DNA of 26,717 nt from a virus. The position numbers and the translations under genes are program-made. Numbering within the stretch: position 1 is the stretch's first letter; every line of letters starts with the position of its first letter. This document shows, in pieces, positions 1-26,468 of this stretch. Under the pieces are notes generated by a model. It was given only the letters and a program-made list of their open reading frames with translations. It ran no database searches and was not told the DNA's origin. The stretch is from the IMG/VR virus record IMGVR_UViG_3300047678_000801, positions 1-26,717 of that record, one strand, 5' to 3'.

Positions 1-867
1 TTATTTTCTTCTAATCGGCGTTGCCGATGATACATGTCGAACTTCGCCATTACGCTCAATTGATGTTACTCGCATAAGCTCGTCGCCTCTGTATGAAACA
101 GAAAATCGGACACGATTTAATTCTTCATCACGTCCACCAAAACATTGATGCATCGCATGGAGCAATCCAACGCTTTCAATCGTGTGTGGTTCCGGGTTTG
201 GATTATTGCGTACTGTAGGAACGGTAATCGGGAATAGATATATGCATGGTGGAGGAAGCTGAAATTGACCTACAGCCGTTCTCCGCTCTAGGGCATTCTC
301 CAGCTTGGGACAAGGGCGAGCGATGGTGCCACAAAGCCAATCCCATACAATTAAACCATCAACCAACTTTCCGTTTTCGATAATCTCTGCACTTAAGCGC
401 GTATGAATACCCGACCATACGTTATGTTTTGGATCTGCACCTGCATTGCTACAAACACTCCATATAACAAATTCTTGCGCGTGGGCTGGGCGTTCAAAAA
501 TAGTAGTGTTATTACCATCGAGGCAACCTTTTAACTCGATAACAGAAATACGGCCATCGCTTAAGGTTACTGTATAATCATGACGGTTGGATTCCCCGGC
601 CGATGCCCATTCACGAATACAACCTTGATCTTGCATGTAGTTTAAGACATTGCGTACAAAATCTCTTTTTTCACGCATGGTTGCGGAATATTGACCCCGT
701 ATGCGCTCAATGGCACCGCGAAACAATCCGCCTTGATAAAAATCAACTTCTGTTAAACCGTGCGTGCCTAGTGTATGCGCTTCGGTTTTCAGAATTTCTG
801 CGAATTCGTCGATCTGCTGCTTAAGATTAGAGTTTATCTGACAAGGTATCGACATATGACAATTCAA
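1..867 (-). CDS. Probable type II restriction endonuclease (PD-(D/E)XK fold)
   Basis: Likely cleaves DNA at the site protected by the adjacent C5-cytosine methyltransferase. The sequence shows a plausible PD-(D/E)XK core: Asp97 followed 14 residues later by E111-L-K113 at the end of a beta-strand (SVIELKG), preceded by a helical N-terminal half. The last base pairs of the methyltransferase gene overlap this gene: the stop TGA shares bases with a TTG at 867 (TTGA), giving 288 aa. An in-frame ATG at 855 gives 284 aa. The only Shine-Dalgarno-like GGGAG is badly spaced for both, so translational coupling is likely and the exact start is open. I do not recognise a specific endonuclease family or recognition sequence. 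The assignment rests on the catalytic-motif pattern and on its position next to a modification methylase. The region is more AT-rich than the phage genes, suggesting separate acquisition. Confidence 0.7.
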   Translation of the reverse strand: MNCHMSIPCQINSNLKQQIDEFAEILKTEAHTLGTHGLTEVDFYQGGLFRGAIERIRGQYSATMREKRDFVRNVLNYMQDQGCIREWASAGESNRHDYTVTLSDGRISVIELKGCLDGNNTTIFERPAHAQEFVIWSVCSNAGADPKHNVWSGIHTRLSAEIIENGKLVDGLIVWDWLCGTIARPCPKLENALERRTAVGQFQLPPPCIYLFPITVPTVRNNPNPEPHTIESVGLLHAMHQCFGGRDEELNRVRFSVSYRGDELMRVTSIERNGEVRHVSSATPIRRK

Positions 868-2087
868 GCTCCCGCATTGAGTAGGATTGGCTCGAAAAGA
901 TTTGCAGCAAAGTGCCGTACCACGGGAACAACTACGCCATCGCCAGTTAAATGATAGGCTTCATTATAATTCTGAGGCAGTTTATAATTATCAGGCAAAC
1001 CCATTAATCGGGCAGTTTCTCTACTTGAAATCAACCGCGATTTTATAACGTCACCTTTCACAGTGATTATCAGTTGCCGACTAGAGCCGCCGGCAGGGGT
1101 GCGTAAACACCCTGCGATATCATCAAAACGTACTTCCGCACGCTGCTCTTTAATGCCCTGTGAATTGAACCGCGTGCGTTTATATATTGTTCCCACCAGT
1201 AGTTTTTTTGACTTTTTGGCTGCTTCAACTTTTTTAAGATTTACGTCATTCATCATGGATAAAAGCGCAGTAGTTTCTTCGGCTGTATGCCACGAAACGC
1301 TACTTGGTTTATCTTCAATTAAATCGGCAAATTTTGATGTCCGTTTTTCTGGAAGCTTCATATTCCACCATAACCACGCCTGTTTTGTAGATGGTTTTAG
1401 GCGATCATATGCAGCACATAAAGCTTTAGAATGCCAATAGCCAACTGGAGTTTCACTTACTAAATTTTTTGGGAAAGGCACGTCCGCCTTAATGGCAATA
1501 ATAAATAAACGCGGCCTTGAATGAGGAACAAATGCGGCGGCATCAACCACCACGGCACCCAATTTATAGCCTGAACCAGCTAATGCTTCTGCAATAGCAG
1601 TAAAATCTTTGCCGCCATGCGACGTAAGGGTTCCGCAAACATTTTCTAGGACGATTAGGGAAGGATGCCTTTTTTCAGATTTCAATTTTTTAATTAAATT
1701 CCAAAACGGCCAAAATGCCCCTGACCGCTCACCACGCAATCCCGCACCTGCACCTGCAAGCGACAAATCTTGGCAAGGAAAAGAGGCCCAAACAAGATTA
1801 GGTTGTGCGGGTAATTCACTGGCTTTAAGTTTTCCAACGTCTTCTGTTTTAAGTACGCCATCACCCCAATTGTTGATATAGGCCGCACTTTTTTTGAAAT
1901 CAAAATCATTGGCAAAAAGGCATTCCCACTTAGCACCTAAGCCAGCACGAGCCATGCCACCGCCCGCAAAGAATTCATAGAAACCGAATTTGTTAATTTT
2001 AGGTTTGGATTGCACGATATAGTCCGCAGGCCGATAGGCGCTGTTTATCTCCCGGATATTATCTAATGTTTGCAATCCCTCGCTCAC
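864..2087 (-). CDS. DNA (cytosine-5) methyltransferase
   Basis: Transfers a methyl group from S-adenosylmethionine to C5 of cytosine in DNA. All main motifs are visible in order: motif I FYEFFAGGGMARAGLG (about residues 36-51), motif IV FPCQDLS with catalytic Cys105, motif VI LENV (147-150), motif VIII SRPRLFIIAI, then a short target-recognition region, motif IX (SSRETARLMGLPDNY) and motif X (GDGVVVPVVRHFAANLF) at the C-terminus. Length 407 aa is normal for the family. The start is GTG at 2087, with AAGGGA eight bases upstream. It is transcribed toward the probable restriction enzyme, which it overlaps by four bases, making a two-gene restriction-modification operon with its own promoter. It lies beyond the spanin genes, in the usual place for phage cargo genes. 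Confidence 0.95.
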   Translation of the reverse strand: MSEGLQTLDNIREINSAYRPADYIVQSKPKINKFGFYEFFAGGGMARAGLGAKWECLFANDFDFKKSAAYINNWGDGVLKTEDVGKLKASELPAQPNLVWASFPCQDLSLAGAGAGLRGERSGAFWPFWNLIKKLKSEKRHPSLIVLENVCGTLTSHGGKDFTAIAEALAGSGYKLGAVVVDAAAFVPHSRPRLFIIAIKADVPFPKNLVSETPVGYWHSKALCAAYDRLKPSTKQAWLWWNMKLPEKRTSKFADLIEDKPSSVSWHTAEETTALLSMMNDVNLKKVEAAKKSKKLLVGTIYKRTRFNSQGIKEQRAEVRFDDIAGCLRTPAGGSSRQLIITVKGDVIKSRLISSRETARLMGLPDNYKLPQNYNEAYHLTGDGVVVPVVRHFAANLFEPILLNAGA

Positions 2088-2162: not shown

Positions 2163-2276
2163 TTACCGTTTTACATCTGCAAAAGCCAGTAATTTCTCAA
2201 AATACCCTCGATACATGCTATCATCCGCATAATCTGTGGTTTTACCATCCGCAAATTTTCCGGCCCACGCGGTTAT
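2163..2276 (-). other. Possible small ORF without a normal start codon, downstream of and overlapping Rz1
   Basis: In a frame different from Rz1, 37 codons run from an ATA at 2276 to TAA at 2163 with protein-like composition (it includes the stretch YRGYFEKLLAFADVKR). No ATG, GTG or TTG precedes the single Met at codon 21, and an in-frame TAG lies two codons upstream of the ATA. It could be a small gene whose ATG mutated to ATA, the remnant of a longer gene, or a chance open frame. I recognise no family. It covers most of the otherwise gene-free gap between the lysis module and the methyltransferase. Confidence 0.25.
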
Positions 2277-2439
2277 GCTCTAAAATTTCGCGGGCCGTGG
2301 TATCGCTTAAAGCGTCCTCCGGCCCGATCATGATAGGCTTGGCAATCTGGCAATAGCTGTTATTTGCGCGTCCAATCCCGGCGCAACTCGTCAAGAGCAG
2401 CGCCATCGCGCATGCCGCGCATATCGTTTTCAACTTCAT
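2242..2439 (-). CDS. Rz1-like outer-membrane spanin lipoprotein
   Basis: Outer-membrane partner of the two-component spanin, which fuses inner and outer membranes at the last step of lysis in Gram-negative hosts. The 65-residue product has a signal peptide (KLKTICAACAMALLLTSC) ending in the lipobox LTSC with Cys19 as lipidation site. The short mature part holds the C..AKPI...D...D.TAREI.EHN....CGW pattern seen in many phage o-spanins. The gene begins inside the i-spanin gene in another frame and overlaps it by 80 bases, an arrangement typical of Rz/Rz1 pairs. It ends with GW-stop, like relatives. Confidence 0.85.
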   Translation of the reverse strand: MKLKTICAACAMALLLTSCAGIGRANNSYCQIAKPIMIGPEDALSDTTAREILEHNRVGRKICGW

Positions 2440-2611
2440 TGGCTTTACCTACTGTTTCATTTTGCTGCAAAAGCTGGCTTGCGCGTTCATCATCACGGCC
2501 CGATTGCCGAATTTTGAACACCACCAGCACCACGGCGGCGGCGATTCCTAGCCATTTGAGAATTACGGCATAGGAACGCTGCCACCAGCTGAGTAAGAGG
2601 CCCCAAATCAT
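2360..2611 (-). CDS. Rz-like inner-membrane spanin
   Basis: Inner-membrane spanin subunit. The 83-residue protein has one N-terminal transmembrane segment (about residues 15-32, YAVILKWLGIAAAVVLVVF) followed by a charged periplasmic part predicted to be alpha-helical or coiled coil (RDDERASQLLQQNETVGKANEVEND). This is the expected layout of an i-spanin that would span the periplasm and meet Rz1. Its ATG overlaps the stop of the upstream muramidase-like gene (ATGA at 2608-2611), so translation is coupled. Identification rests on topology and the overlapping lipoprotein gene rather than on residue conservation, since i-spanins diverge quickly. Confidence 0.82.
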   Translation of the reverse strand: MIWGLLLSWWQRSYAVILKWLGIAAAVVLVVFKIRQSGRDDERASQLLQQNETVGKANEVENDMRGMRDGAALDELRRDWTRK

Positions 2612-3276
2612 ATTAGCCCCTTGCGGCGGTCATCCAGCCGCGCCAAGGCGATGTAAGCGGCGGCGATAACCACCAGCACCCCCAGCACGATTAAGAAGCC
2701 CAGCGCGTTATCTTTGACCATTTGCGAGAGCGCTGACAAAACCGGGATAGCGGGCGCGGCTTCAGCAATCACCCCGGAAGCAGCTGCAACCGCCCCGGCG
2801 CTTGCCGTGATTTGAGCGCCTTTCATAGTAGGGGTTTTTGCCAACGGCTTAGGCGCGGTTTCAACACCTGCTAGCACCAACGCCTTATCGATTTGCTCAC
2901 TGGTGTAAGGCTGTTGCGCGTTTTCATGCCAGATAATCGCCATTACCAGCGGCTTCAAATATTCATGCTGGTGAAGATCAAGCGGCTGGTCGGCATCAAA
3001 GCCGGTGCGCTCGGCCACGCGCTTAACATAGGCTTCTGTGTTATTCTCTGAAGCTGGGGCCCAACGGCTTATAAATTCGCGTATGGTATGCAGCGAATAA
3101 TCATCCTGGTACTTAATCAAAAGCCGAGCAATTGCACGGATGCCGTAAACCGGATTTTGAAATGTGAAAAATTCCGTGTCCGATTGCGATGGCGCCAGCC
3201 CTTGCCATTTGTCTTTTGAAAGCCGGATATTGCCGGGGTTATTATTGCGAATTCCGCGTGATACGTTTTTAGGCAT
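2608..3276 (-). CDS. Phage muramidase-like lysis or virion protein with C-terminal membrane anchor
   Basis: Probably degrades peptidoglycan. The N-terminus carries the signature RGIRNNNPGNIR, found in a family of phage proteins often named structural protein P5-like or lysozyme-like, continuing through about residue 135. A linker rich in Ala/Pro/Thr leads to a single strongly hydrophobic segment near residues 189-211 (ALGFLIVLGVLVVIAAAYIAL) and a short basic tail. No N-terminal signal peptide is visible, so the membrane anchor is at the wrong end for a classic SAR endolysin. The start at 3276 follows AGGAG with eight-base spacing. Placement before Rz/Rz1 supports a lysis role. I cannot identify the catalytic residues with certainty. 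Confidence 0.75.
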   Translation of the reverse strand: MPKNVSRGIRNNNPGNIRLSKDKWQGLAPSQSDTEFFTFQNPVYGIRAIARLLIKYQDDYSLHTIREFISRWAPASENNTEAYVKRVAERTGFDADQPLDLHQHEYLKPLVMAIIWHENAQQPYTSEQIDKALVLAGVETAPKPLAKTPTMKGAQITASAGAVAAASGVIAEAAPAIPVLSALSQMVKDNALGFLIVLGVLVVIAAAYIALARLDDRRKGLI

Positions 3277-15127: not shown

Positions 15128-15776
15128 TTGAAGTGACCTCCGGCCAATTATTTAGAATTGATTGCCCCAACTGCGGTTGCCATTGATTCACCACGGCTTT
15201 GTAATCCAGCCGTTTTTTCAGCTTCGCTTGCGGCACTAAAATAAACATCACCACCGTTGTAAGGCCGCGCCCGGTGCGCTGCGCGGTATCAGAGGCTTTG
15301 CGGAATCCGCCGCGCTTCTCCGTTCCAACCCGCAAACCATCTACCACCAGCAACGATACCGCGCCGGGGCGATAGACAAACCGCAAGCGGCCGAGCGCTT
15401 GCTCTGGAAAATTTGCAGGGCTAATGCGCTTCCCGCCAACGCCGTGCTTTGGCGCTGCATCGGTAGGAATTGCCAGAAACCAGCCATCTTTGCTTTTAAT
15501 CACCGCACCTTCATTGAAAGCGCGAATAATCTTTGGTGCTTTGGAAAATATCCAGCCCGCCGCATCCAGTGATTTCTTGCCTTTCGGATAAACCTTTGCT
15601 TGCCAGCTTTTTGCCAGCTTAGAGCCGAGGCCCGCGCCGGTGACTTGCTGGCGTAAATCGTCCTTAATATGCGTAGTGATTTCCGATACGCCGCCTGTCA
15701 CCGCAGCTTCCGCAGCTTCTTGTTGCTGCTTCATAAACTTGGTGAGATTTCCTTTTATAGCTGCTTCAAGACGCAT
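15111..15776 (-). CDS. DUF6441-like minor tail / connector protein
   Basis: A virion assembly protein of alphaproteobacterial phages, in the slot of HK97-gp10-like tail completion proteins. The 221-residue product starts MRLEAAIKGNLTKFMKQQQE and contains the family-like blocks GLGSKLAKSWQAKVYPKGKK, WIFSKAPKIIRAFNEGAVIK, WFLAIPTDAAP and LRFVYRPGAVSLLVVDG. The second half is basic with a strand-rich core. ATG at 15776 was preferred because the family begins there and an AGG lies upstream. ATG at 15782 is also possible, and the longer frame to 15848 would overlap the FII-like gene heavily. Precise role unproven. Confidence 0.72.
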   Translation of the reverse strand: MRLEAAIKGNLTKFMKQQQEAAEAAVTGGVSEITTHIKDDLRQQVTGAGLGSKLAKSWQAKVYPKGKKSLDAAGWIFSKAPKIIRAFNEGAVIKSKDGWFLAIPTDAAPKHGVGGKRISPANFPEQALGRLRFVYRPGAVSLLVVDGLRVGTEKRGGFRKASDTAQRTGRGLTTVVMFILVPQAKLKKRLDYKAVVNQWQPQLGQSILNNWPEVTSNDEQT

Positions 15777-16077
15777 AGACATCAACCTGTAAAACGAGTT
15801 GTTCACTGTCGCGCCTTGGCGTTCCCTGCACGGTGTAGGTAATGCCATCGATCATGAATTGGTCGCCCGCCACGACAGAAGGGCAATCGGCAACCTGCAC
15901 CTCAAGCACAAGGCTTGGGGTTTCGATTACTGATTGCCCTATGTCTTGGTAGATATCCGGCGCACGGGTAATGACGCGAACGGACCTATCTGTTCCAATA
16001 ATCGGCAGGAAAAATGCGTCTTTTGACAGATTACGGTCATTGAATAATGTTAAAATCGCTAACGATAATGCTGTCAT
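15766..16077 (-). CDS. Head-tail connector protein, FII-like
   Basis: Small head-completion protein expected to bind the connector and provide the tail attachment surface. The 103 residues are mostly beta-strand after a short N-terminal helix (MTALSLAILTLFNDRNLSKD). The C-terminal pattern, AGDQFMIDGITYTVQGTPRRD followed by LVLQVDVY, is typical of the FII/Gifsy-2 head-tail attachment group. AGGA lies about ten bases before the ATG. The gene follows the decoration protein and overlaps the DUF6441-like gene, an order found in lambda-like heads. Confidence 0.75.
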   Translation of the reverse strand: MTALSLAILTLFNDRNLSKDAFFLPIIGTDRSVRVITRAPDIYQDIGQSVIETPSLVLEVQVADCPSVVAGDQFMIDGITYTVQGTPRRDSEQLVLQVDVYAS

Positions 16078-16126
16078 AAAACTGGTTCCTGTAATTTTCG
16101 GTAATGGATAGATCGTTGCTGCTAAT

Positions 16127-16462
16127 TTAGCTGATATAGGCCGCGTTTAGCCGCACGTTTCCTACCGTATCGCCGGTTAGAGCTGCTAAGGTGGCAACAC
16201 CAATCAGCTTGTTGGAAGCTGCGGTTGTGGTGCAGTTTTTGGCGGTGTTATCCCAATAAATAAGAGCGCCTTGCGTCCACGCTGCGCCGGTGGCTTTGGC
16301 AAGTGTGCCAACACCTTCCAGCAGCGTTTCAACATCCGCGCCGGAAAGCGCATCAAAAGCCGCCACGCCGAAAATGGAGCCGACAAGCAGCCCTTGCCCG
16401 GAGGTGACGTTATAAGGCGCAGTCAACGTGATCGTGCGGCCTTCCATTACAAAGTTTTTCAT
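16127..16462 (-). CDS. DUF2190 capsid decoration protein
   Basis: Likely binds the outer face of the capsid and stabilises it. The 111-residue protein matches DUF2190: a short start with EGRTITLTAPYNVTSGQGLLV, then GSIFGVAAFDALSGADVETL, KATGAAWTQGALIYWDNTAK and the ending TVGNVRLNAAYIS. It is small, lacks charged clusters and is predicted to be all beta. AAGGA precedes the ATG at about nine bases. It follows the capsid gene after a terminator hairpin, which may set its level relative to the capsid. Confidence 0.85.
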   Translation of the reverse strand: MKNFVMEGRTITLTAPYNVTSGQGLLVGSIFGVAAFDALSGADVETLLEGVGTLAKATGAAWTQGALIYWDNTAKNCTTTAASNKLIGVATLAALTGDTVGNVRLNAAYIS

Positions 16463-16488
16463 AATTAGTTTTCCTTTTTGTTAGACAT

Positions 16489-16511
16489 AAAAAAACCGGC
16501 TTGAAGCCGGT
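16489..16511 (-). terminator. Rho-independent terminator after the capsid gene
   Basis: On the minus strand ACCGGCT, loop TCA, AGCCGGT forms a perfect 7-bp stem followed by seven T residues. It lies about 30 bases after the capsid stop codon and before the decoration gene. It probably terminates part of the transcripts, giving more capsid than downstream tail mRNA. A similar hairpin plus seven T residues recurs at 3553-3576. Confidence 0.8.
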
Positions 16512-16542
16512 GGTTGGGTGGTTATTTAGAGAGGTGTTGGAA

Positions 16543-18627
16543 TTACGCGCCTGCGTTTTTCCACATACCGCGCCAGTCGATTGCTTTGGCGGCGAAGTCA
16601 AGGCGGGCTTTAAGTTCCAGCCCGTCAACATCGAAGCCTAAGCGACTTTCGAGGTAAACACCTTCCTGACCTTCCAAGAAGCAGTATTCGATAGTATCGA
16701 TCTGCGCCGGGTCAGCGGCTAAATACCAAGTAAGCGCGGAAGCAGCATCCAAACGCGGTTCGGCCAGCACTTGCAGGGCATTGGCAAACGGGTTGTAATC
16801 CGAGGCTTTGGTAGCAAGGATATTCGTTTGCGTTACATACTGCTGTGCAACGGTTTCAAGCGCTGCAGGAACCATCAGGTATTTAGGTTGCACGTTGATG
16901 AAGCGGCCATTTAACCCTTTCTGCTTACGCATACCGGCGCGACCGTTACCCAAGGCGGCGACAGTGATTGCAGCGTTCACCGCATCAAGGTTGCCGTGGT
17001 TGGCATGGAACAATGCCGTACCATCACCCATTGCGGCGTTTGCGGTGAGGATGCCCCACACCGTATCGCTTTGAAGGTCGGCGGCAGCGCGGCCAAACAT
17101 TTCAGGCAAGCGCGTGAACGCTGCAAGATCATCGTTGATGATTGTTTGGCGGTTGATTGCTACCACCTTGCCATAGGTTCCCAGCGCGTATTGTTCTTTA
17201 CCATCGCTGATCGTGCCACGCTTAAATTCGCCCGATTCATTCACCTTATCAAGCGTTGGCGCATCACCCAATTGAACGCGGGCAATGGTTTTGAAATCCG
17301 GCGCAGTAACTTGGCGAGAGAACGGTTTGAAGGTTTGCGGGGCCGCTTCGTAAGCATTACGCAGCGTTTTATTCGCCACATTCAACACGATATTAGCAAA
17401 GTCGCTGGTGGAGTGATAACCGCCGCGAACTTCCATGCCAAGCATAAGGCCCGCTGATTCCGATTTGGAAAGGCCGCGAGTATCGATGCCTTTTCGTTTC
17501 AGAACATCACGCCCCATTTCCATTAACGTCATGCCACGGAATTCACGCGCTCCCGAATCCAGCTTATAGGTGTTCGGGTCATGGCGATGAAGCAAGGCGT
17601 TTTCGGCCATCGCACGCACGCTATCCATTTCATCACGGGTAATGGTGATTTGCGAACGGATTTCGCCCCCTTCGCCGCTGGTGCGAGCAAGTTCATCCAG
17701 AACAAGCTTGCGGGCTTGTGGAATGGCTGTGCCATCATTCACCAGCTTTTGCGCGAACGTATCCGGCAGTTTTGCGGCGCGAACAATTTTGTTCACTTCC
17801 GTAACGCGAGAGCGTTCAAGGCGCATACCTTCGGCGCGGGCTTCTTCATTACCCGGCGTTTCAGTTGAAGCGGCAGGGTTTGCAGGATTTGCCGGTGCTT
17901 CGGCAGGATTAGCAGCGGGCGGATTTGCAGCCGGTGCTTCGGGATTCGCCGGATTTTCATTCGGCTGATTTTCATTGTTGGACATAGTGCGATTCTCCTT
18001 TGGGTTGGTTGAAAGATAGATAACCTCGCACGGGAAAGTGTGAGGGTTGGAACGGATGCCAGCGCCAGCATCCGCCCCGATGGGAACCAACGAAATTTCG
18101 TAAGGCTCCCAATCGATGATGCGGTAAAGTGGCACCGCACCTTCGTTTCTGATGACTTCGCGTTTGTGAACACGATAGCCAACGCTGACATTTTGAATGA
18201 TGCCATCGCGTATTTTGCGTATGACCGACTCATTTTCTGGCCCGGCATCGACCTTGAAGCTGGCATAACCAAGCCCACCAGCAATGCGGGCGGTTCCGGC
18301 GATCACCACGCCTTTGATATTTTCCAGCGAGCTATCGTTATGGGTATCTAATACCGGCGCACCGGAATTAAGCCGCCCAAGCCGCACTGAAGTATCATTT
18401 ACCACTAGTTCTTCGTCGTACATTTCATCGGCAAAGAAATCGTATTTGCGAACGGTCGCGCCGGTAGTGAAAACCATATTGAAAATGCGGTTTTCATTAT
18501 CGCCTTGCTCGGCATCAAGCGTCGCCAGCCTCGTCTGAAGCGGAAGGCTCACCCTCTCCATCAAGGGCGAGTTTGAGTTGCTTTCCGGCTTTTTTGCTAG
18601 GTTTTTTGGTTGGGGTTGTGTCTGCAT
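16543..18627 (-). CDS. Prohead protease / major capsid protein fusion
   Basis: One reading frame carries the maturation protease and the main shell protein. Of 694 residues, about 25-190 form a prohead serine protease: GAPVLDTHNDSSLENIKGVV gives the likely catalytic His, and IIQNVSVGYRVHKREV the Ser. A Pro/Ala/Asn-rich linker (about 215-265) and a helical scaffold-like region follow. The C-terminal about 300 residues resemble Mu gpT-type major capsid proteins (TLRNAYEAAPQTFKPFSRQV, YALGTYGKVVAINRQTIIND, WGILTANAAMGDGTALFHAN). ATG at 18627 was chosen for GGAGG five bases upstream. It overlaps the portal gene by 113 bases. A second in-frame ATG with AAAGGAG at 17985 should make the 480-residue scaffold-capsid part alone. 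Confidence 0.9.
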   Translation of the reverse strand: MQTQPQPKNLAKKPESNSNSPLMERVSLPLQTRLATLDAEQGDNENRIFNMVFTTGATVRKYDFFADEMYDEELVVNDTSVRLGRLNSGAPVLDTHNDSSLENIKGVVIAGTARIAGGLGYASFKVDAGPENESVIRKIRDGIIQNVSVGYRVHKREVIRNEGAVPLYRIIDWEPYEISLVPIGADAGAGIRSNPHTFPCEVIYLSTNPKENRTMSNNENQPNENPANPEAPAANPPAANPAEAPANPANPAASTETPGNEEARAEGMRLERSRVTEVNKIVRAAKLPDTFAQKLVNDGTAIPQARKLVLDELARTSGEGGEIRSQITITRDEMDSVRAMAENALLHRHDPNTYKLDSGAREFRGMTLMEMGRDVLKRKGIDTRGLSKSESAGLMLGMEVRGGYHSTSDFANIVLNVANKTLRNAYEAAPQTFKPFSRQVTAPDFKTIARVQLGDAPTLDKVNESGEFKRGTISDGKEQYALGTYGKVVAINRQTIINDDLAAFTRLPEMFGRAAADLQSDTVWGILTANAAMGDGTALFHANHGNLDAVNAAITVAALGNGRAGMRKQKGLNGRFINVQPKYLMVPAALETVAQQYVTQTNILATKASDYNPFANALQVLAEPRLDAASALTWYLAADPAQIDTIEYCFLEGQEGVYLESRLGFDVDGLELKARLDFAAKAIDWRGMWKNAGA
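17985..18001 (-). promoter_or_regulatory. Internal ribosome binding site for separate capsid synthesis
   Basis: AAAGGAG (18001-17995) stands nine bases before an in-frame ATG at 17985, whose product begins MSNNENQPNENPANPE. This is at the junction between the protease domain and the scaffold/capsid part. It resembles the nested start of Nu3 within lambda gene C, and would supply many capsid subunits per protease copy. Confidence 0.72.
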
Positions 18628-20458: not shown

Positions 20459-22300
20459 TCAACGCTTCATCCAATCATCCATGCGCGGAATCCACGCCTT
20501 GTCTTTTGGGTTTTGCGTTTCTTTCGTTTCACTTTCAGGCTTTATGCGTGGGGCGTTTTCGATTTCCTCGGTTAATTGTGTCAAATTGGGATTAAGCAGC
20601 TTAAAGGCGGCAAGCGCATACACGGTGCAATCCAGCACCTCGTTGCGTGTTCGCGTTTTAATCCATTCCCGTTTCGCCACGCCCTTAGTAAAGCGCACCA
20701 CCTGTTTTTCCGCCGTGAGCTGAAGGAAATATTCACGGTCACGTTCCAGCGGAAAGTGAAAGTAACCGTTGCCGGGTTCGGTGACGCGCAAGCGGCCAAA
20801 AATGACCTCTTTCGCGGTATCCGTACCAACCGGATAGAGCCGCATTTTATAGCGGTTATTCCGGCTCGGCCGTCCGATCAATGGCTTTGCGCTCTGGCTT
20901 AATCCTTTCACCGCGAACACGCCGCGCACGGCGCGTTTGCTGCAAAATTCATAAACCATTTGGGTATGATGACCGCCTGAATCCACGCACGCGCAGGCAA
21001 TATTAAGCTCCACGCCTAATTTGCTGCGTATCGGTTTGAGCAAATAAGCGTCAAGCTCCTGCCAAACTGAATCCTGCGCCGGGTCGCCATAGAAAACCCG
21101 GTAATCCAATGACCAACATTCCTCCCCAATGCCCCAGCCTTTAACTTCGATTTCAAGGCGATCACCTTGCACGTCCACGCCCGCCGTAACCAGCACCACC
21201 GGCTCCGGCGCATCATCGCCCCAGCTTTCTTTACGCTGCAGGAGGATATCGGCATCAAGCGTTTCACCTTCTTCTTCCCACGGTTCACCAAGCGAAGTGT
21301 TTACCCATGTTTTCAAGGTTTCCGGCAAGGCTTTCGCCCGCAGGAAATCAATTGCCATTTGCGCCCACGTCACCCACGGCGAGTAAAGCTCGTTGATATG
21401 AAACCCGGCGATATCACTAAACGGCCTGTCTGCCACCCAGCGTCCCGCTTTATTCATTGCCAGCCGTTCACCTTCCACGATGATGCAGCCGTGATGCTCG
21501 CAAACATAGTGCGCGGTTTCCGGTTTGTGGCCGGTTTCGCCGCGCTCCCACCGTACTTGCGCCCATTTCAACACCTGAAATTCGCCGCAATGCGGGCAAG
21601 GCACATGGTAATGCCTTTGATCGCTCTGCTCATAGGCCGCTTCAATCCGGCTTGCACCCTTGATAGTAGGGGTGGAAGTGAGGATTAATTTACGGTTCCA
21701 GAATGTCGTGGTGCGCTTTTTCGCCAAACTCACCGGGTCGCCTTCGGTGCCAGCCGAAACGGGGTAACGATCAACTTCGTCACCCAGCACAATGCGTATC
21801 GGGCGGCTGGCAAGCGAAGCGGGCGAATTAGCGCCAGCCATAGTGATATGCCCACCGGGAAAGCGCTTATAAAGAAGCGTATTCCCGCTATCGCGCGACC
21901 GCGCATCTCTCACCAGGCCGCGCAAAACATCCGTATCGCGCAGCATGGGCGAAAGCCGGTCTTTGCTCCATGCCTCTGCCATTTCCAGCGTCGGCTGCAA
22001 AAGCAGGATAGGCGACGGGTCAAGATGGATATGGTAGCCGATTATATTATTAATAATCTCCGTTTTGCCGATCTGCGCCGATGACATAATGACCACGGTT
22101 TCCACCCGTGCGTCACAAACCGCATCCATAATTTCACGCTGATAAGGTGCGCGGTCAGTATGCCATTTCCCCGGTTCGGCGCTTGCCTCACTACTAAGCT
22201 GGCGGAACTTGTCCGCCCACTGGCTTACCTTCATCGATGGCGGCGGTGCTAATAGCTTCGCCACCTCGCGTATCAATGCTGCTGCTCGATTCTGGGTCAT
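20459..22300 (-). CDS. Terminase large subunit, GpA family
   Basis: ATP-driven motor and nuclease that cuts and packages phage DNA. The 613-residue protein carries the GpA signatures SQWADKFRQLSSEASAEPGK and TDRAPYQREIMDAV, a Walker A-like SSAQIGKT (residues 73-80), a Walker B region IRIVLGDEVDRYP near residue 175, ILTSTPTIKGAS as coupling motif, a zinc-finger-like CPHC...CEHHGC, and the nuclease start VLVTAGVDVQGDRLEIEVKG. A further acidic cluster (RTRNEVLDCTVYALAA) near the C-terminus completes the nuclease. The gene overlaps the small subunit gene by 107 bases and has no strong ribosome site, suggesting coupled translation. GpA-type enzymes usually cut at cos sites. Confidence 0.95.
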   Translation of the reverse strand: MTQNRAAALIREVAKLLAPPPSMKVSQWADKFRQLSSEASAEPGKWHTDRAPYQREIMDAVCDARVETVVIMSSAQIGKTEIINNIIGYHIHLDPSPILLLQPTLEMAEAWSKDRLSPMLRDTDVLRGLVRDARSRDSGNTLLYKRFPGGHITMAGANSPASLASRPIRIVLGDEVDRYPVSAGTEGDPVSLAKKRTTTFWNRKLILTSTPTIKGASRIEAAYEQSDQRHYHVPCPHCGEFQVLKWAQVRWERGETGHKPETAHYVCEHHGCIIVEGERLAMNKAGRWVADRPFSDIAGFHINELYSPWVTWAQMAIDFLRAKALPETLKTWVNTSLGEPWEEEGETLDADILLQRKESWGDDAPEPVVLVTAGVDVQGDRLEIEVKGWGIGEECWSLDYRVFYGDPAQDSVWQELDAYLLKPIRSKLGVELNIACACVDSGGHHTQMVYEFCSKRAVRGVFAVKGLSQSAKPLIGRPSRNNRYKMRLYPVGTDTAKEVIFGRLRVTEPGNGYFHFPLERDREYFLQLTAEKQVVRFTKGVAKREWIKTRTRNEVLDCTVYALAAFKLLNPNLTQLTEEIENAPRIKPESETKETQNPKDKAWIPRMDDWMKR

Positions 22301-22751
22301 AGAGGGATAACTCGTTCAATGCTTCATGCACCAGATCCCTCAACGCATTTTCCACTTCATGAAACTCCTTGAGTCCGGTGGCTATATGTGCGCCCCGCGT
22401 CGGAAAACTCATCAAGCGGGCGCGGCACGAAACCGCCATTCCCGCCCAATATGCTTTGACCTCCGCAACGGTAATCAGGTCGCGTTTCATCACTCGCACT
22501 TCCATTTCGGTTTTATCGGCTTGGGCTTTGAGCAACCGGGCGCGTTCTTGGTGCGCGTCAATTGTCATCACGTCTTTGCCAAAAGCGCGTTCCTGTAGGA
22601 AACCGATATAGCCGCGCACACAGCCGACTAACTCGTATTTCCCTTTTTCAGCCTTCGGGATAATTCCATCCTTTGCCAGCTGTTGCACCCGGCGTTCGGA
22701 CACGCCAAAGAGCCGGGCAATTACGCCCACCTTGTATGTTGGTTCTGACAT
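22194..22751 (-). CDS. Terminase small subunit, Nu1-like
   Basis: Recognises the packaging start on phage DNA and recruits the large subunit. The 185 residues begin with a winged helix-turn-helix as in lambda Nu1 (YKVGVIARLFGVSERRVQQL, DGIIPKAEKGKYELVGCVRG), followed by a long helical region (QERARLLKAQADKTEMEVRV, a pattern common in this family) and an assembly/large-subunit-binding C-terminus that is Ser/Gly-rich. It begins four bases after the methyltransferase stop and overlaps the large subunit gene, so packaging genes are co-translated with the upstream block. Confidence 0.9.
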   Translation of the reverse strand: MSEPTYKVGVIARLFGVSERRVQQLAKDGIIPKAEKGKYELVGCVRGYIGFLQERAFGKDVMTIDAHQERARLLKAQADKTEMEVRVMKRDLITVAEVKAYWAGMAVSCRARLMSFPTRGAHIATGLKEFHEVENALRDLVHEALNELSLYDPESSSSIDTRGGEAISTAAIDEGKPVGGQVPPA

Positions 22752-22755
22752 ATGA

Positions 22756-23403
22756 TTACTTCGTAATTATCCAACCGGCGAAATCGCCAAAACGAAACCA
22801 CAAGCTTGCATCTTCACCCAGCATGGCCGGGTCAAGCGGGCGCTGCACGCCCGACAAGCTCAACTCTTTTGCAATGACGCTTTCGGCATCAACGCCCGCC
22901 GCGACTTTCCCGGCCAGCGTCAACCGCCAAAATACGGTTGCTTCATAACCCGAAGCCGCCTCGCATTTATCTATAATCAGCAACGCGCCTCCGGGCTTAA
23001 TCAGCGTTTTGAGATTATCGATAAATGCTTGCCGTTTATCTATCGGCATGAACATCACCACCAAATAACAAATCGCCAAATCGAAAGGCTGAAAGCGGTA
23101 ATCCAGCGCGTCAATCTGCACAAGTTCGCCGGGAGCAGCATACTTGGCGCACATTTCCGCGCTGGATTCGATGCCGATAAGCTGGGCTTTTCGTTCCTTC
23201 AGCGTTTCGGCAATTGATCGGCCTATGTTGCCGGTGGATGCACCAACATCATAAACCAGCCCGCCTTTCGGTATGTAATGGCGGGCAATATGTGCTATCG
23301 CGCCCGTCACCATGTCATACCAAGGCAGTTGTTCGCGGACGTGTTTATCGAACCCCGAGGCTACCGAAGTATTCTCGAACGTCCATTCTCTAGGGATTTG
23401 CAT
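22756..23403 (-). CDS. SAM-dependent methyltransferase, CmoA-like class I fold
   Basis: A class I S-adenosylmethionine-dependent methyltransferase of unknown substrate. Motif I is GLVYDVGASTGNIGRSIAET, motif II ends in the acidic GIESSAEM, a motif IV-like strand is FDLAICYLVVMFMP, and LKTLIKPGGALLIID is the common post-motif helix-strand. The order resembles CmoA and similar small-molecule or tRNA-cofactor enzymes. No DPPY/NPPY or PCQ is seen, so it is not an ordinary DNA methylase. ATG at 23403 (MQIPREWTF) was chosen because it lies just after the HAD stop, giving 215 residues. The in-frame ATG at 23445 would overlap that gene. It is the fourth gene of a coupled block in front of the terminase genes. 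Confidence 0.8.
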   Translation of the reverse strand: MQIPREWTFENTSVASGFDKHVREQLPWYDMVTGAIAHIARHYIPKGGLVYDVGASTGNIGRSIAETLKERKAQLIGIESSAEMCAKYAAPGELVQIDALDYRFQPFDLAICYLVVMFMPIDKRQAFIDNLKTLIKPGGALLIIDKCEAASGYEATVFWRLTLAGKVAAGVDAESVIAKELSLSGVQRPLDPAMLGEDASLWFRFGDFAGWIITK

Positions 23404-23407
23404 AATT

Positions 23408-23821
23408 TTAGCTCGGTAAGGTTTGCCATTCTTCACCCGGCTCAATTTTCACCGAGCGGATGCCATGCCGCGCATACATCGCGCGGGTGGCAGGGTTACT
23501 TTCAATCGCCAACATTTCAGCGCCGCCGTGTTTAGGCAGCACAAACTCTTTCAGCATGCCATCTTTCGCCAAGGGCGGCATAAGGCCGTAAGCGTTGAAG
23601 TACGCTTCATTAGGTTGCCACCCCGTTTTGCTTTGGATGCTGGCAAGAGTAGCTGCCCGGTATTTTACTGGCCGCGCCGTCATCAATATGACGTGGTGCT
23701 GCCTAACCAGCTTCACCAGCCATGCACGATATCGCTCTGCCTCAATCTGCTTTGTAAAAGGCTTTTGCTTTTCGGTGCTGTTTTCAACCAGCGTGTAATT
23801 AAGATCGAGAAGTATAATCAT
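23408..23821 (-). CDS. HAD-superfamily protein with altered catalytic motifs
   Basis: A small HAD-fold protein, possibly a phosphatase acting on nucleic-acid or nucleotide phosphates. In 137 residues, motif I is MIILLDLNYTLV, with the nucleophile Asp but Asn in place of the usual second Asp. Motif II is VILMTARP, a likely motif III lysine is in PLAKDGMLKE, and motif IV is LAIESNPATRAMY, where the usual Asp-Asp is Glu-Ser. The cap region is short. Its ATG overlaps the stop of the ParB-methyltransferase gene (ATGA at 23818-23821). The altered acids may change or remove hydrolase activity. Substrate unknown. Confidence 0.7.
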   Translation of the reverse strand: MIILLDLNYTLVENSTEKQKPFTKQIEAERYRAWLVKLVRQHHVILMTARPVKYRAATLASIQSKTGWQPNEAYFNAYGLMPPLAKDGMLKEFVLPKHGGAEMLAIESNPATRAMYARHGIRSVKIEPGEEWQTLPS

Positions 23822-25332
23822 AATTTTATTCCTAAACGCATTGAGAAGGCTTCAATCGCTTCATCTACCAGCCCCATCCGGCTACCGTCCGGGTAAGGTA
23901 GATCAAATTCAAACTCTAATGCCTTTCTAAGCGTTTTCTTATTAACTATTAGTGGCTTAGAGCATACAGCCTGCACGTTGTGATTACTATCATTCACGCT
24001 TACGATTTCAAAAAATTCCTTAAACAGACCGTAAAATTCTTTGAGCGTATGATACTTCTGCACCTTCGGCTGGTTGCTGATATCGCCCAGCGTAATGCCG
24101 GGTTCATATTCGAGCATGAACAGCTTTGCGGTGGCCTGTGTTTTGCTCAAATATTTCCCACCTTTCACCTGCCGCATGCCAGCCTGATTCATGCTGGTTG
24201 CCGCCGCATAAAGTTTGGTATGCGGCGATGCAAGCGCGGCGCATATGCAAGCGATATGGCGGCGGTCTTCGGCAAAAGGAACGCTATTCAATACGCTTGA
24301 TATGAAAATCGAAGTGTATTGCACCTGCCGGTGTGAAATGTCGTAAAGAAATTCGCGGGTCAGCGAAATGCTTTCCTGTTTGCTAATTTCCTCGCTTGCA
24401 TCCACACGATAGGGTTCAAATGGCGTAACCTGCATACCGATAGAACGCAGGATTTTCGTTTCGTATAAATGCCCCGCACCGAAATCCAGAATGACTTTGC
24501 CGTGTTCCTTCACCCAGCGTTCGGCATTCTTCGGCTCGGTCACGTCAAAATCCTTTGACGTTTTGCTGCCGGCAACGGCGAAGATGAAACCACGGCCCAA
24601 CTGTTTACGCACACCGCGCAAACGGCGGAAGGAATTATAGCGCAGCAGATCGCGGTAACGGTTATGGATATCGAAATCCATTGAAAGCAAATTGAGCATG
24701 GCATCGGCCAGCCGCGCTTCTTCTTCTGTCACGAACACCACGCCGATAGATGGCTTTTTGTTTTCCGCCAGCATTTGCAAGCGACCAATGCCGTTAACCA
24801 CCTTCAAATCCTTGGTTGCCACCACCGGCATTATCACGCCTTTAAGGTAAAGCGTTTTTGATATGCTGGCCGCATAGGTAATCCACCGGCCCGAATTAGC
24901 TTTGAGTAACGGAGCAAGCGGCATTTCCTGCGCTTTCATGCACGGGTAGAAATCCAAAGTGTCCGGCGTTTTATCCGGCACGGCGGCGGCTATGGCCTCA
25001 ATATCCACCCGGCCCAATGCTTCAGTAATGTTCTTCGGCGTATCACCGCAATCCAAATCATTCGTTGCGCGGTTGAAGGCTACGTTGACCGCTTTGCGTT
25101 CTGGCAATTCCATCGCCCTGGTGATCGCCACCGGCACTTGTTTAACGCCCATGCGTTTTGCAACGTGGTGGCGCTGGTGGCCGGAAATGATTTCACCGTC
25201 TGGCGTTGCGTAAATTGGCAAAACGAAACCGAGCTTACGCAAGGAAAGTTCGATTAAATCAAGGCGGCGTGGATCCGCTTGGCGTGGATTGTACGTTGAC
25301 GGGTTTAAGCTATCGATATTGACCAGTTTCAT
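23818..25332 (-). CDS. ParB-like domain fused to a SAM methyltransferase domain
   Basis: A 504-residue two- or three-domain protein of unknown substrate. Residues 1-75 form a ParB/Srx-like domain with the core GEIISGHQRHHVAKRMG (46-62). Residues about 150-220 look like a second, degenerate ParB-like unit (LKGVIMPVVATKDLKVVNGI, then GRLQML at 183-188). From about 278 a class I methyltransferase follows: motif I KVILDFGAGHL (279-289), an acidic motif II in TPFEPYRVD, a motif IV-like TSIFISSVLNSVPF. No exocyclic-amine DNA-methylase motif (DPPY/NPPY) is present. The gene overlaps the upstream ParB gene (ATGA at 25329-25332) and the HAD gene downstream. DNA binding and modification are plausible but inferred. 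Confidence 0.75.
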   Translation of the reverse strand: MKLVNIDSLNPSTYNPRQADPRRLDLIELSLRKLGFVLPIYATPDGEIISGHQRHHVAKRMGVKQVPVAITRAMELPERKAVNVAFNRATNDLDCGDTPKNITEALGRVDIEAIAAAVPDKTPDTLDFYPCMKAQEMPLAPLLKANSGRWITYAASISKTLYLKGVIMPVVATKDLKVVNGIGRLQMLAENKKPSIGVVFVTEEEARLADAMLNLLSMDFDIHNRYRDLLRYNSFRRLRGVRKQLGRGFIFAVAGSKTSKDFDVTEPKNAERWVKEHGKVILDFGAGHLYETKILRSIGMQVTPFEPYRVDASEEISKQESISLTREFLYDISHRQVQYTSIFISSVLNSVPFAEDRRHIACICAALASPHTKLYAAATSMNQAGMRQVKGGKYLSKTQATAKLFMLEYEPGITLGDISNQPKVQKYHTLKEFYGLFKEFFEIVSVNDSNHNVQAVCSKPLIVNKKTLRKALEFEFDLPYPDGSRMGLVDEAIEAFSMRLGIKL

Positions 25333-25919
25333 AAGCCCAACCTTTTTCTAAGTTCTTCAACAATCGATTCTTTATCGAAACCCACGCGCTGCCTGATTTC
25401 TTCCATCCATTCCAAATATGGCCCGCGCTCGATGACAAACGAGTAAGGGCCGATGGTTGCTTTGGTATCCGCTTCATCCACGTCACCTTCTTCTTCACCG
25501 GCGATGCCATCTTGCAAGCCTTCAAGGGAAAGCCGAAGGCTGTTTAATTCTTCTTCGTTGAAACCCAGCACGTCCGTTTTGTAATCGGCCGCATCGAGTT
25601 CGCCGATTTCCAGCTGCAGAAGTTCTTTATCCCACTCCGCTTCTTCGCCGGTTCGGTTGTCGGCAATGCGGTAAGCTTTAATCTGCTCTGGGCTTAAGCC
25701 TTCCATCACATGCACCGGCACTTTTTTAAGCGCCAATTTCTGCGCCGCTTGGTAGCGAACGTGGCCTACGATGATGACCATTTCGCTATCCACAACGATA
25801 GGCTGACGGAAGCCGAATTCTTGAATGGAAGCAGCCACCTTATCCACGGCATGCGCGGTTATCCTAGGGTTGCGGGCGTATGGCACCAGCTTATCGAGAT
25901 TGATTAACTCCACTTTCAT
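25329..25919 (-). CDS. ParB/sulfiredoxin-fold N-terminal domain protein
   Basis: First gene of the late operon in this window. The 196-residue protein begins with a ParB-type domain: INLDKLVPYARNPRITAHAV, IQEFGFRQPIVVDSEMV and the signature IIVGHVRYQAAQKL (about 49-62), then VPVHVMEGLSPEQIKAYRIA with DNRTGE. The C-terminal half is acidic and helical. Such stand-alone phage ParB-fold proteins often sit next to DNA methyltransferases or terminases and may bind, nick or help modify DNA, in some cases with nucleotide hydrolysis. AGGAG nine bases upstream supports the ATG at 25919. It is not a chromosome partition gene by context, as no parA is present. Confidence 0.85.
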   Translation of the reverse strand: MKVELINLDKLVPYARNPRITAHAVDKVAASIQEFGFRQPIVVDSEMVIIVGHVRYQAAQKLALKKVPVHVMEGLSPEQIKAYRIADNRTGEEAEWDKELLQLEIGELDAADYKTDVLGFNEEELNSLRLSLEGLQDGIAGEEEGDVDEADTKATIGPYSFVIERGPYLEWMEEIRQRVGFDKESIVEELRKRLGL

Positions 25920-26129: not shown

Positions 26130-26468
26130 ATGAATACTGACCAACAAAACGCCACCATAATAGCCGCGCTTAATGACCGCTTTCGCCACACCTTTTGGGG
26201 TGGGCAGGTGATGACGACGTGCGGAGTTAATGAGCTAAGTGACGATAAACGTGCAGCTTTGTTCAATTCCGTGCGCGATTTCGATAACTTTGTGCAGGAT
26301 AACGACCCGCACGGTGAGCATGACTTCGGTAAGGTGGTGATCGATGACCAATCCTTCTTTTGGAAGATTGATTATTACGATCACACCCTTTGCTTTGGTT
26401 CTGAAAACCCGGCTGACCCGGCAGTAACCACCCGTGTTCTTACCATCATGTTAGCCAGCGAATATTAA
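26130..26468 (+). CDS. DUF3768 domain protein
   Basis: A 112-residue soluble protein of the DUF3768 family, widespread on alphaproteobacterial chromosomes, plasmids and phages, function unknown. The family pattern is complete: ALNDRFRHTFWGGQVMTTCG, VRDFDNFVQDNDPHGEHDFG, FFWKIDYYDHTLCFGSENPA and RVLTIMLASEY. The C-terminus falls at the usual place, so it is full length. AGAGGA lies about seven bases before the ATG. It is the only clear plus-strand gene in the window and is divergent from the late operon, so it may be expressed separately, for instance during lysogeny or early infection. Confidence 0.9.
   Translation: MNTDQQNATIIAALNDRFRHTFWGGQVMTTCGVNELSDDKRAALFNSVRDFDNFVQDNDPHGEHDFGKVVIDDQSFFWKIDYYDHTLCFGSENPADPAVTTRVLTIMLASEY

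Follow-up and report, generated by a model that had tools for sequence, protein, structure and literature searches.

A phage gene block pairing a CmoA-like protein with a ParB-methyltransferase fusion, a probable carboxy-S-adenosylmethionine DNA-modification module

Organization of the gene block

In the virus record IMGVR_UViG_3300047678_000801 of IMG/VR, whose 26,717 nucleotides were analyzed as a whole and are called the window below, four minus-strand genes at 22756-25919 stand directly before the terminase genes TerS and TerL. They encode a stand-alone ParB-fold protein, a fusion of ParB and methyltransferase domains that we name ParBMT, a HAD-fold protein and a methyltransferase-fold protein resembling CmoA. 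The open reading frames and junctions confirm the coupling described in the initial annotation, with ATGA overlaps at 25329-25332 (ParB/ParBMT) and 23818-23821 (ParBMT/HAD) and 4-base gaps before the ATG of the fourth gene at 23403 and before TerS. They also agree with its assignment of ParB domains to two genes and class I methyltransferase domains to two (ParB_N in genes 1 and 2, methyltransferase in genes 2 and 4). As for the link to packaging that it suggested, the block does lie directly before the terminase genes, but this position alone shows no packaging role. We propose that the block is probably a DNA-modification module using carboxy-S-adenosylmethionine (Cx-SAM), in which ParBMT would act as a Cx-SAM-dependent carboxymethyltransferase on phage DNA without belonging to the methyltransferase family of the known enzyme CmoX.

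The CmoA-like protein

CmoA converts S-adenosylmethionine (SAM) and prephenate into Cx-SAM, and in the Escherichia coli enzyme Arg199 binds the new carboxylate (PMC3663124). In December 2025, CmoX, a C5-methyltransferase making 5-carboxymethylcytosine in DNA, was shown to be supplied by a phage CmoA; in Synechococcus phage S-B43, CmoA is the Cx-SAM synthase, Arg350 is a key residue of CmoX and the ligase CmoY adds glycine (PMC12783734). The same study saw ParB-domain genes near CmoX, with no known role, and its preliminary search for N6- or N4-carboxymethyltransferases linked to phage CmoA revealed no candidates (PMC12783734).

The fourth gene of the block had been described as a class I methyltransferase and no further; the fold holds, and the family match points to CmoA (TIGR00740, E 5e-14, below the family cut-off; CmoA structure PDB 4gek, E 3e-12). 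It also matches phrog_4752, annotated as tRNA methyltransferase (E 4e-48). Its open frame, 22756-23445, reaches a TTG, and the ATG at 23403 is the more likely start. Position 199 was located with an E. coli CmoA sequence that is consistent with the published Arg199, Glu164, Asp89 and Asn132 as well as with the PDB 4gek alignment. The window protein has Glu at this position. Since the assayed SpCmoA (locus L007; PMC12783734) and all 52 distinct CmoX-linked CmoAs share this residue, Glu199 is a normal phage form, and its presence was rejected as a disproof of Cx-SAM synthesis. Among 141 distinct ParBMT-linked CmoAs, position 199 is Arg in 58, Glu in 57 and Ala in 13. By homology and clade, the block thus contains a CmoA-family gene predicted to encode a Cx-SAM synthase.

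ParBMT is found in place of CmoX

Loci were collected by scans on ParBMT in viral contigs, on CmoA, on HAD, on ParBMT in bacterial and archaeal genomes, and on more distant ParBMTs; they overlap in part. CmoA was present in 79 of the 80 loci found by scanning viral contigs for ParBMT. Sufficient flanking sequence was available for 100 distinct, full-length ParBMTs; within 4 kb of these, CmoA was observed 97 times, ParB 98 times and HAD 85 times; because some of these loci had been chosen by CmoA or HAD, 79/80 is the cleaner figure. The initial annotation had asked whether the genes co-occur across phages, with scattered homologues as the unfavorable outcome. They travel together, and scattering is excluded. 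Many bacterial phyla have phages or prophages with this gene set, which turned up in Alphaproteobacteria, Vibrio, Photobacterium, Verrucomicrobiota, Bacteroidales, Clostridia, Chloroflexi, cyanobacteria and others; chance therefore cannot account for the block. A neighborhood search for other recurrent modification genes near it gave only terminase, portal and other phage genes. Most records are fragments, the complete phages being Aeromonas HJ05, Pseudomonas SM1 and Gordonia Evaa, so gene absences outside these three carry little weight.

ParBMT and CmoX exclude each other. The scan on CmoA alone yielded 13 loci with ParBMT, 55 with a C5-methyltransferase bearing the CmoX Cx-SAM arginine and none with both; over all 281 CmoA loci (redundant), ParBMT occurs in 208, a CmoX-type C5-methyltransferase in 57 and both in none. 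No CmoX with SPPC and Arg350 was found for the block, the CmoX arginine being absent from all 208 loci that hold ParBMT and CmoA. Where a C5-methyltransferase does lie near ParBMT, it lacks this arginine (15 of 15 cases, with Asn, Asp or no alignable residue), and one found later (L336) reads GNAIVP at the site. HJ05, SM1 and Evaa possess CmoA and ParBMT and no PF00145 gene at all. A tree of 82 CmoAs, made by a quick method and with several long branches, requires at least six switches between ParBMT and CmoX partners in mixed, well supported clades; the window CmoA sits in a starred clade alongside CmoX-linked CmoAs. That the same cofactor enzyme serves both transferases is our main argument that ParBMT uses Cx-SAM.

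The same data bear on a reading in which the fourth gene product would be a SAM-dependent methyltransferase or a SAM sink rather than a Cx-SAM synthase, the block serving anti-defense or regulatory methylation. The window protein indeed lacks Arg199, scores under the TIGR00740 cut-off and differs from E. coli CmoA at several ligand residues, and SAM depletion has been raised as a possible side effect (PMC12783734). We nevertheless regard this reading as very improbable, given the Glu199 common to SpCmoA and the CmoX-linked proteins, the position of the window CmoA in the tree and the 58 CmoAs of such blocks that keep Arg199.

At the opposite end of the fragment, the window also encodes a C5-methyltransferase that is distinct from the block (864-2087, minus strand; PF00145, E 3e-44). 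It was rejected as a CmoX, having SFPC and not SPPC, and Asp at the Arg350 position, where ordinary enzymes have Asn. Elsewhere, we noticed a second CmoX-like group with GFPC for SPPC that keeps the Cx-SAM arginine (25 loci in L142-L173, CmoA loci without ParBMT); it would escape the published search, which required SPPC. In a Staphylococcus SPbeta-like phage (L008, 4980-6688), CmoA lies directly 5' of a HhaI-like C5-methyltransferase in which Gly occupies the place of Arg350; this could be another variant of CmoX.

Domain structure of ParBMT

ParBMT matches phrog_5475 over its full length (PHROGs, E 7e-106). Its AlphaFold2 model, built from 47 aligned relatives, has a pLDDT of 91.3 and a pTM of 0.88; Foldseek matched it in the PDB with ParB/Noc CTPases and class I methyltransferases, and a profile search retrieved Noc and Spo0J at the sequence level, along with weak matches to UbiG-type O-methyltransferases. 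The ParB_N domain falls just under the Pfam cut-off and is clear by PHROGs and fold, the N-terminus matching the phrog_498 DNA methyltransferases (E 7e-22). The beta-beta-alpha-beta-alpha order in the model and the conserved N180, G181 and R184 suggest that residues 167-214 form a second ParB-like fold. Over 145 distinct proteins, the segments NPR, SGHQR, NGxGR, LRYNSFRR, DFGAG, EP, NSVPF, DR and PKxQK are near-invariant. ParBMT gave no CmoB family match in Pfam/NCBIfam, and its methyltransferase core no N6/N4 methyltransferase match in the Pfam and PHROGs scans.

The core resembles SAM-dependent small-molecule methyltransferases, and CmoM-type esterification is known on tRNA (PMC12783734). 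One could thus imagine ParBMT as an ordinary SAM-dependent methyltransferase working on a CmoA-derived product, for example by esterifying a carboxymethyl base in a CmoM-like manner, the carboxymethyl group being placed by an unseen enzyme. We consider this unlikely: the complete phages HJ05, SM1 and Evaa encode no C5-methyltransferase to place the group, no other modification gene recurs near the block, and an ester-former should accompany CmoX, whereas ParBMT and CmoX-type enzymes are mutually exclusive.

The HAD protein and the stand-alone ParB

The HAD fold given to the third gene by the initial annotation is supported by structure only, with no Pfam HAD match and no match of its profile against PDB sequences. 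For its AlphaFold2 model (pLDDT 97.6), the 17 best PDB fold matches are all T4 Pnkp (3'-phosphatase domain; TM 0.64-0.77). Among 46 representatives, Asp6, Thr48, Arg50, Lys86 and Glu107 are invariant and D-x-N-x-T replaces D-x-D-x-T in 93%; the nucleophile Asp is kept and Asn (N8) occupies the general-acid position. The initial annotation suggested that this protein could act on phosphates; with the Pnkp 3'-phosphatase fold but this Asn, it may be an inactive phosphatase. It might be weakly active, use an unusual substrate that has a good leaving group, or serve in binding. In 186 of 187 loci, HAD relatives accompany ParBMT or CmoA; in none do they accompany an Arg-bearing CmoX. The stand-alone ParB matches PF02195 (E 1e-8) and phrog_620 (E 3e-50), and also adjoins many CmoX genes.

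A protein that resembles a nucleic-acid 3'-end phosphatase and is exclusive to the ParBMT form could speak for a target other than a DNA base. The carboxymethyl group might then go to tRNA, to a protein, to free nucleotides or to DNA ends, and the Pnkp-like HAD would work on ends or nucleotides; CmoA's original role is moreover in tRNA wobble modification. However, ParBMT stands in for the proven DNA enzyme CmoX, a ParB partner is common to both, the ParB domain of ParBMT is related to those of phage DNA methyltransferases and there is no CmoB-type family match. We therefore give such a target little credence.

Some loci vary in this part of the block. In Puniceicoccaceae-type prophages (L209, L213, L262, L270), HAD is present twice, ahead of the stand-alone ParB and again behind ParBMT. 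In other loci, mostly from Clostridia-type hosts (L073-L079, L214-L226, L276-L291), the order differs: HAD comes first and there are two stand-alone ParB genes. In L295, an extra open reading frame of 258 aa (2269-3045, plus strand), oxygenase-like by eye, lies between HAD and CmoA.

Ligases and prephenate supply

In a Nostoc linckia prophage, ParBMT is flanked on both sides by asparagine-synthetase-like (PF00733) genes, and there is a third. It was rejected as a CmoA-free case, CmoA and two ParB genes lying about 10.4 kb upstream on the same contig. The same three ligases are found in viral contig L316 (ParBMT 89% identical), and the start of one such ligase in a Leptolyngbya contig (L302) that is cut off. 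HJ05 encodes a ligase related to the Nostoc type (25% identity over 361 aa) and is its sole carrier among 50,697 phage records; PF00733 was detected in just one of the 40 block records searched. The Nostoc prophage (L299) has, in addition, a large terminase frame of 907 aa at 15683-18406 with an apparent intein-like insert.

3-Deoxy-D-arabino-heptulosonate 7-phosphate (DAHP) synthase catalyzes the first step on the way to prephenate. Its gene lies directly behind TerL in HJ05 and is present in three other block records; the window is without it.

Genomic context

The features of the block and the terminase genes are listed in Table 1. Otherwise the window consists of a phage head and tail region with gene transfer agent (GTA)-like tail proteins. 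Scans for RNAs and tRNAs found nothing in the window, and its promoter and terminator scans gave no more matches than shuffled sequences. A divergent DUF3768 gene (26130-26468, plus strand; PF12599, E 8e-36) lies 5' of the block. PADLOC matches in the window (mad2, MTase_II) were set aside as reflecting only general methyltransferase and ParB similarity.

Table 1. Coordinates of the block, its domains and the adjacent terminase genes in the window.
Feature	Position	Strand	Remarks
Stand-alone ParB-fold protein, first gene of the block	25329..25919	-	196 aa; AGGAG resembling a ribosome-binding site 5' of its ATG
ParBMT (ParB fold, putative second ParB-like fold, class I methyltransferase)	23818..25332	-	504 aa
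ParBMT, N-terminal ParB domain, residues 1-92	25057..25332	-	invariant NPR and SGHQR (Box II-like)
ParBMT, putative second, degenerate ParB-like domain, residues 167-214	24691..24834	-	conserved NGxGRL; N180 G181 R184
ParBMT, methyltransferase core, residues 278-460	23953..24501	-	DFGAG, acidic EP, NSVPF..DR
HAD-fold protein	23408..23821	-	137 aa; fold by structure only
CmoA-like predicted Cx-SAM synthase	22756..23403	-	215 aa from ATG
Terminase small subunit TerS	22194..22751	-	phrog_57 E 6e-30
Terminase large subunit TerL, GpA type	20459..22300	-	PF05876 E 1.2e-100, PF20454 E 2.7e-95

Proposed function

Altogether, these data strongly support the DNA-modification role raised in the initial annotation. 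In the mechanism that we propose, the CmoA-like protein would turn SAM and prephenate into Cx-SAM; with Cx-SAM as the donor, ParBMT, not CmoX, would carboxymethylate a base in phage DNA. The ParB folds of ParBMT probably bind a nucleoside triphosphate and/or DNA and govern access to sites; the stand-alone ParB could help ParBMT or DNA loading, and HAD would play an accessory part that is peculiar to the ParBMT form. The asparagine-synthetase-like ligases of some relatives could convert the carboxylate into amides. The expected outcome would be phage DNA shielded from host nucleases.

Several observations weigh against this proposal. The window is a 26.7-kb fragment, and its CmoA is only about 22% identical to that of E. 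coli. No CmoY-type ligase was found in it, and most loci likewise show none. Known CmoX chemistry leaves no role for HAD. T4-like phages also encode DAHP synthase (209 phage records overall), which weakens it as evidence. The solved methyltransferases nearest to the ParBMT core mostly act on small molecules, and this core has neither a PC motif nor a (D/N/S)PP(Y/F) motif, NSVPF being conserved there instead. This last point bears out the earlier remark that ordinary DNA-methylase motifs are missing, and the lack of the cysteine motif of C5-methyltransferases speaks against ordinary C5 chemistry. As targets, both an exocyclic amine and a pre-existing hydroxyl would be guesses. More tentatively, ParBMT might represent a second class of Cx-SAM-dependent DNA carboxymethyltransferases whose target atom is not cytosine C5 and may be an exocyclic amine, although we hold this narrower version to be somewhat less likely than its opposite.

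DNA carboxymethylation was shown to be natural only in December 2025, with one class of transferase (CmoX), and the block points to a second one. If this is true, it would provide a first function for phrog_5475 and for one type of ParB-methyltransferase fusion, as well as new enzymes with which to attach carboxylate handles to DNA. Should the target be an atom other than cytosine C5, the product would be a base not yet described in DNA; if it were adenine N6, the relatives with ligases could have a new way of making the Mom-type N6-carbamoylmethyladenine. The block is present in phages cultured on Pseudomonas aeruginosa, Gordonia and Aeromonas, for which we found no literature on DNA modification, and the prediction is thus directly testable.

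Comparison with known systems

The initial annotation drew an analogy with DpdB and the 7-deazaguanine system. No genes support it, neither a DpdA transglycosylase nor preQ0 genes being seen among the genes scanned in the window, itself a fragment; the link is to CmoA/CmoX/CmoY.

Parallels can be drawn with several other systems. Phage fusions of ParB to N6/N4 DNA methyltransferases (phrog_498) have a related N-terminal ParB domain; ParBMT differs from them by another methyltransferase core devoid of (D/N/S)PP(Y/F), by its probable second ParB-like fold and by a CmoA nearly always near. In a survey of ParB folds, ParB-Methyltransf_23 fusions were enriched in prophages and some ParB-methyltransferase fusions bound ATP (PMC12704722). 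These ParB-Methyltransf_23 fusions probably share the architecture of ParBMT or include it; the parts of the survey available to us give no function for them and no link to CmoA. Like the 3'-phosphatase domain of T4 polynucleotide kinase, its best PDB match (TM 0.77), the HAD protein has a HAD fold and keeps the nucleophile Asp; unlike it, it has Asn for the general-acid Asp in 93% of cases, no kinase domain and no sequence match. The E. coli CmoA/CmoB pathway to cmo5U in tRNA (PMC3663124, PMC4482062) shares with the block the CmoA family and a Cx-SAM user, here a proposed one, that is not a C5-methyltransferase. On the other hand, the block has no CmoB family match, belongs to a phage and stands beside the terminase genes, and its CmoA has Glu for Arg199.

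The closest relative is the CmoA-CmoX-CmoY system of S-B43, whose products are 5-carboxymethylcytosine and 5-glycylcarboxymethylcytosine (PMC12783734). Both have a phage CmoA with Glu199, often a ParB-domain protein nearby and, in the block, DNA as the likely substrate and ligases in a few relatives. The block departs from it by ParBMT in place of CmoX, of another methyltransferase family and without a PC motif, by the Pnkp-like HAD and, in the window, by the lack of a ligase. The initial annotation had seen here a candidate for an undescribed system: a related carboxymethyl system has been published, but the ParBMT form is distinct from it.

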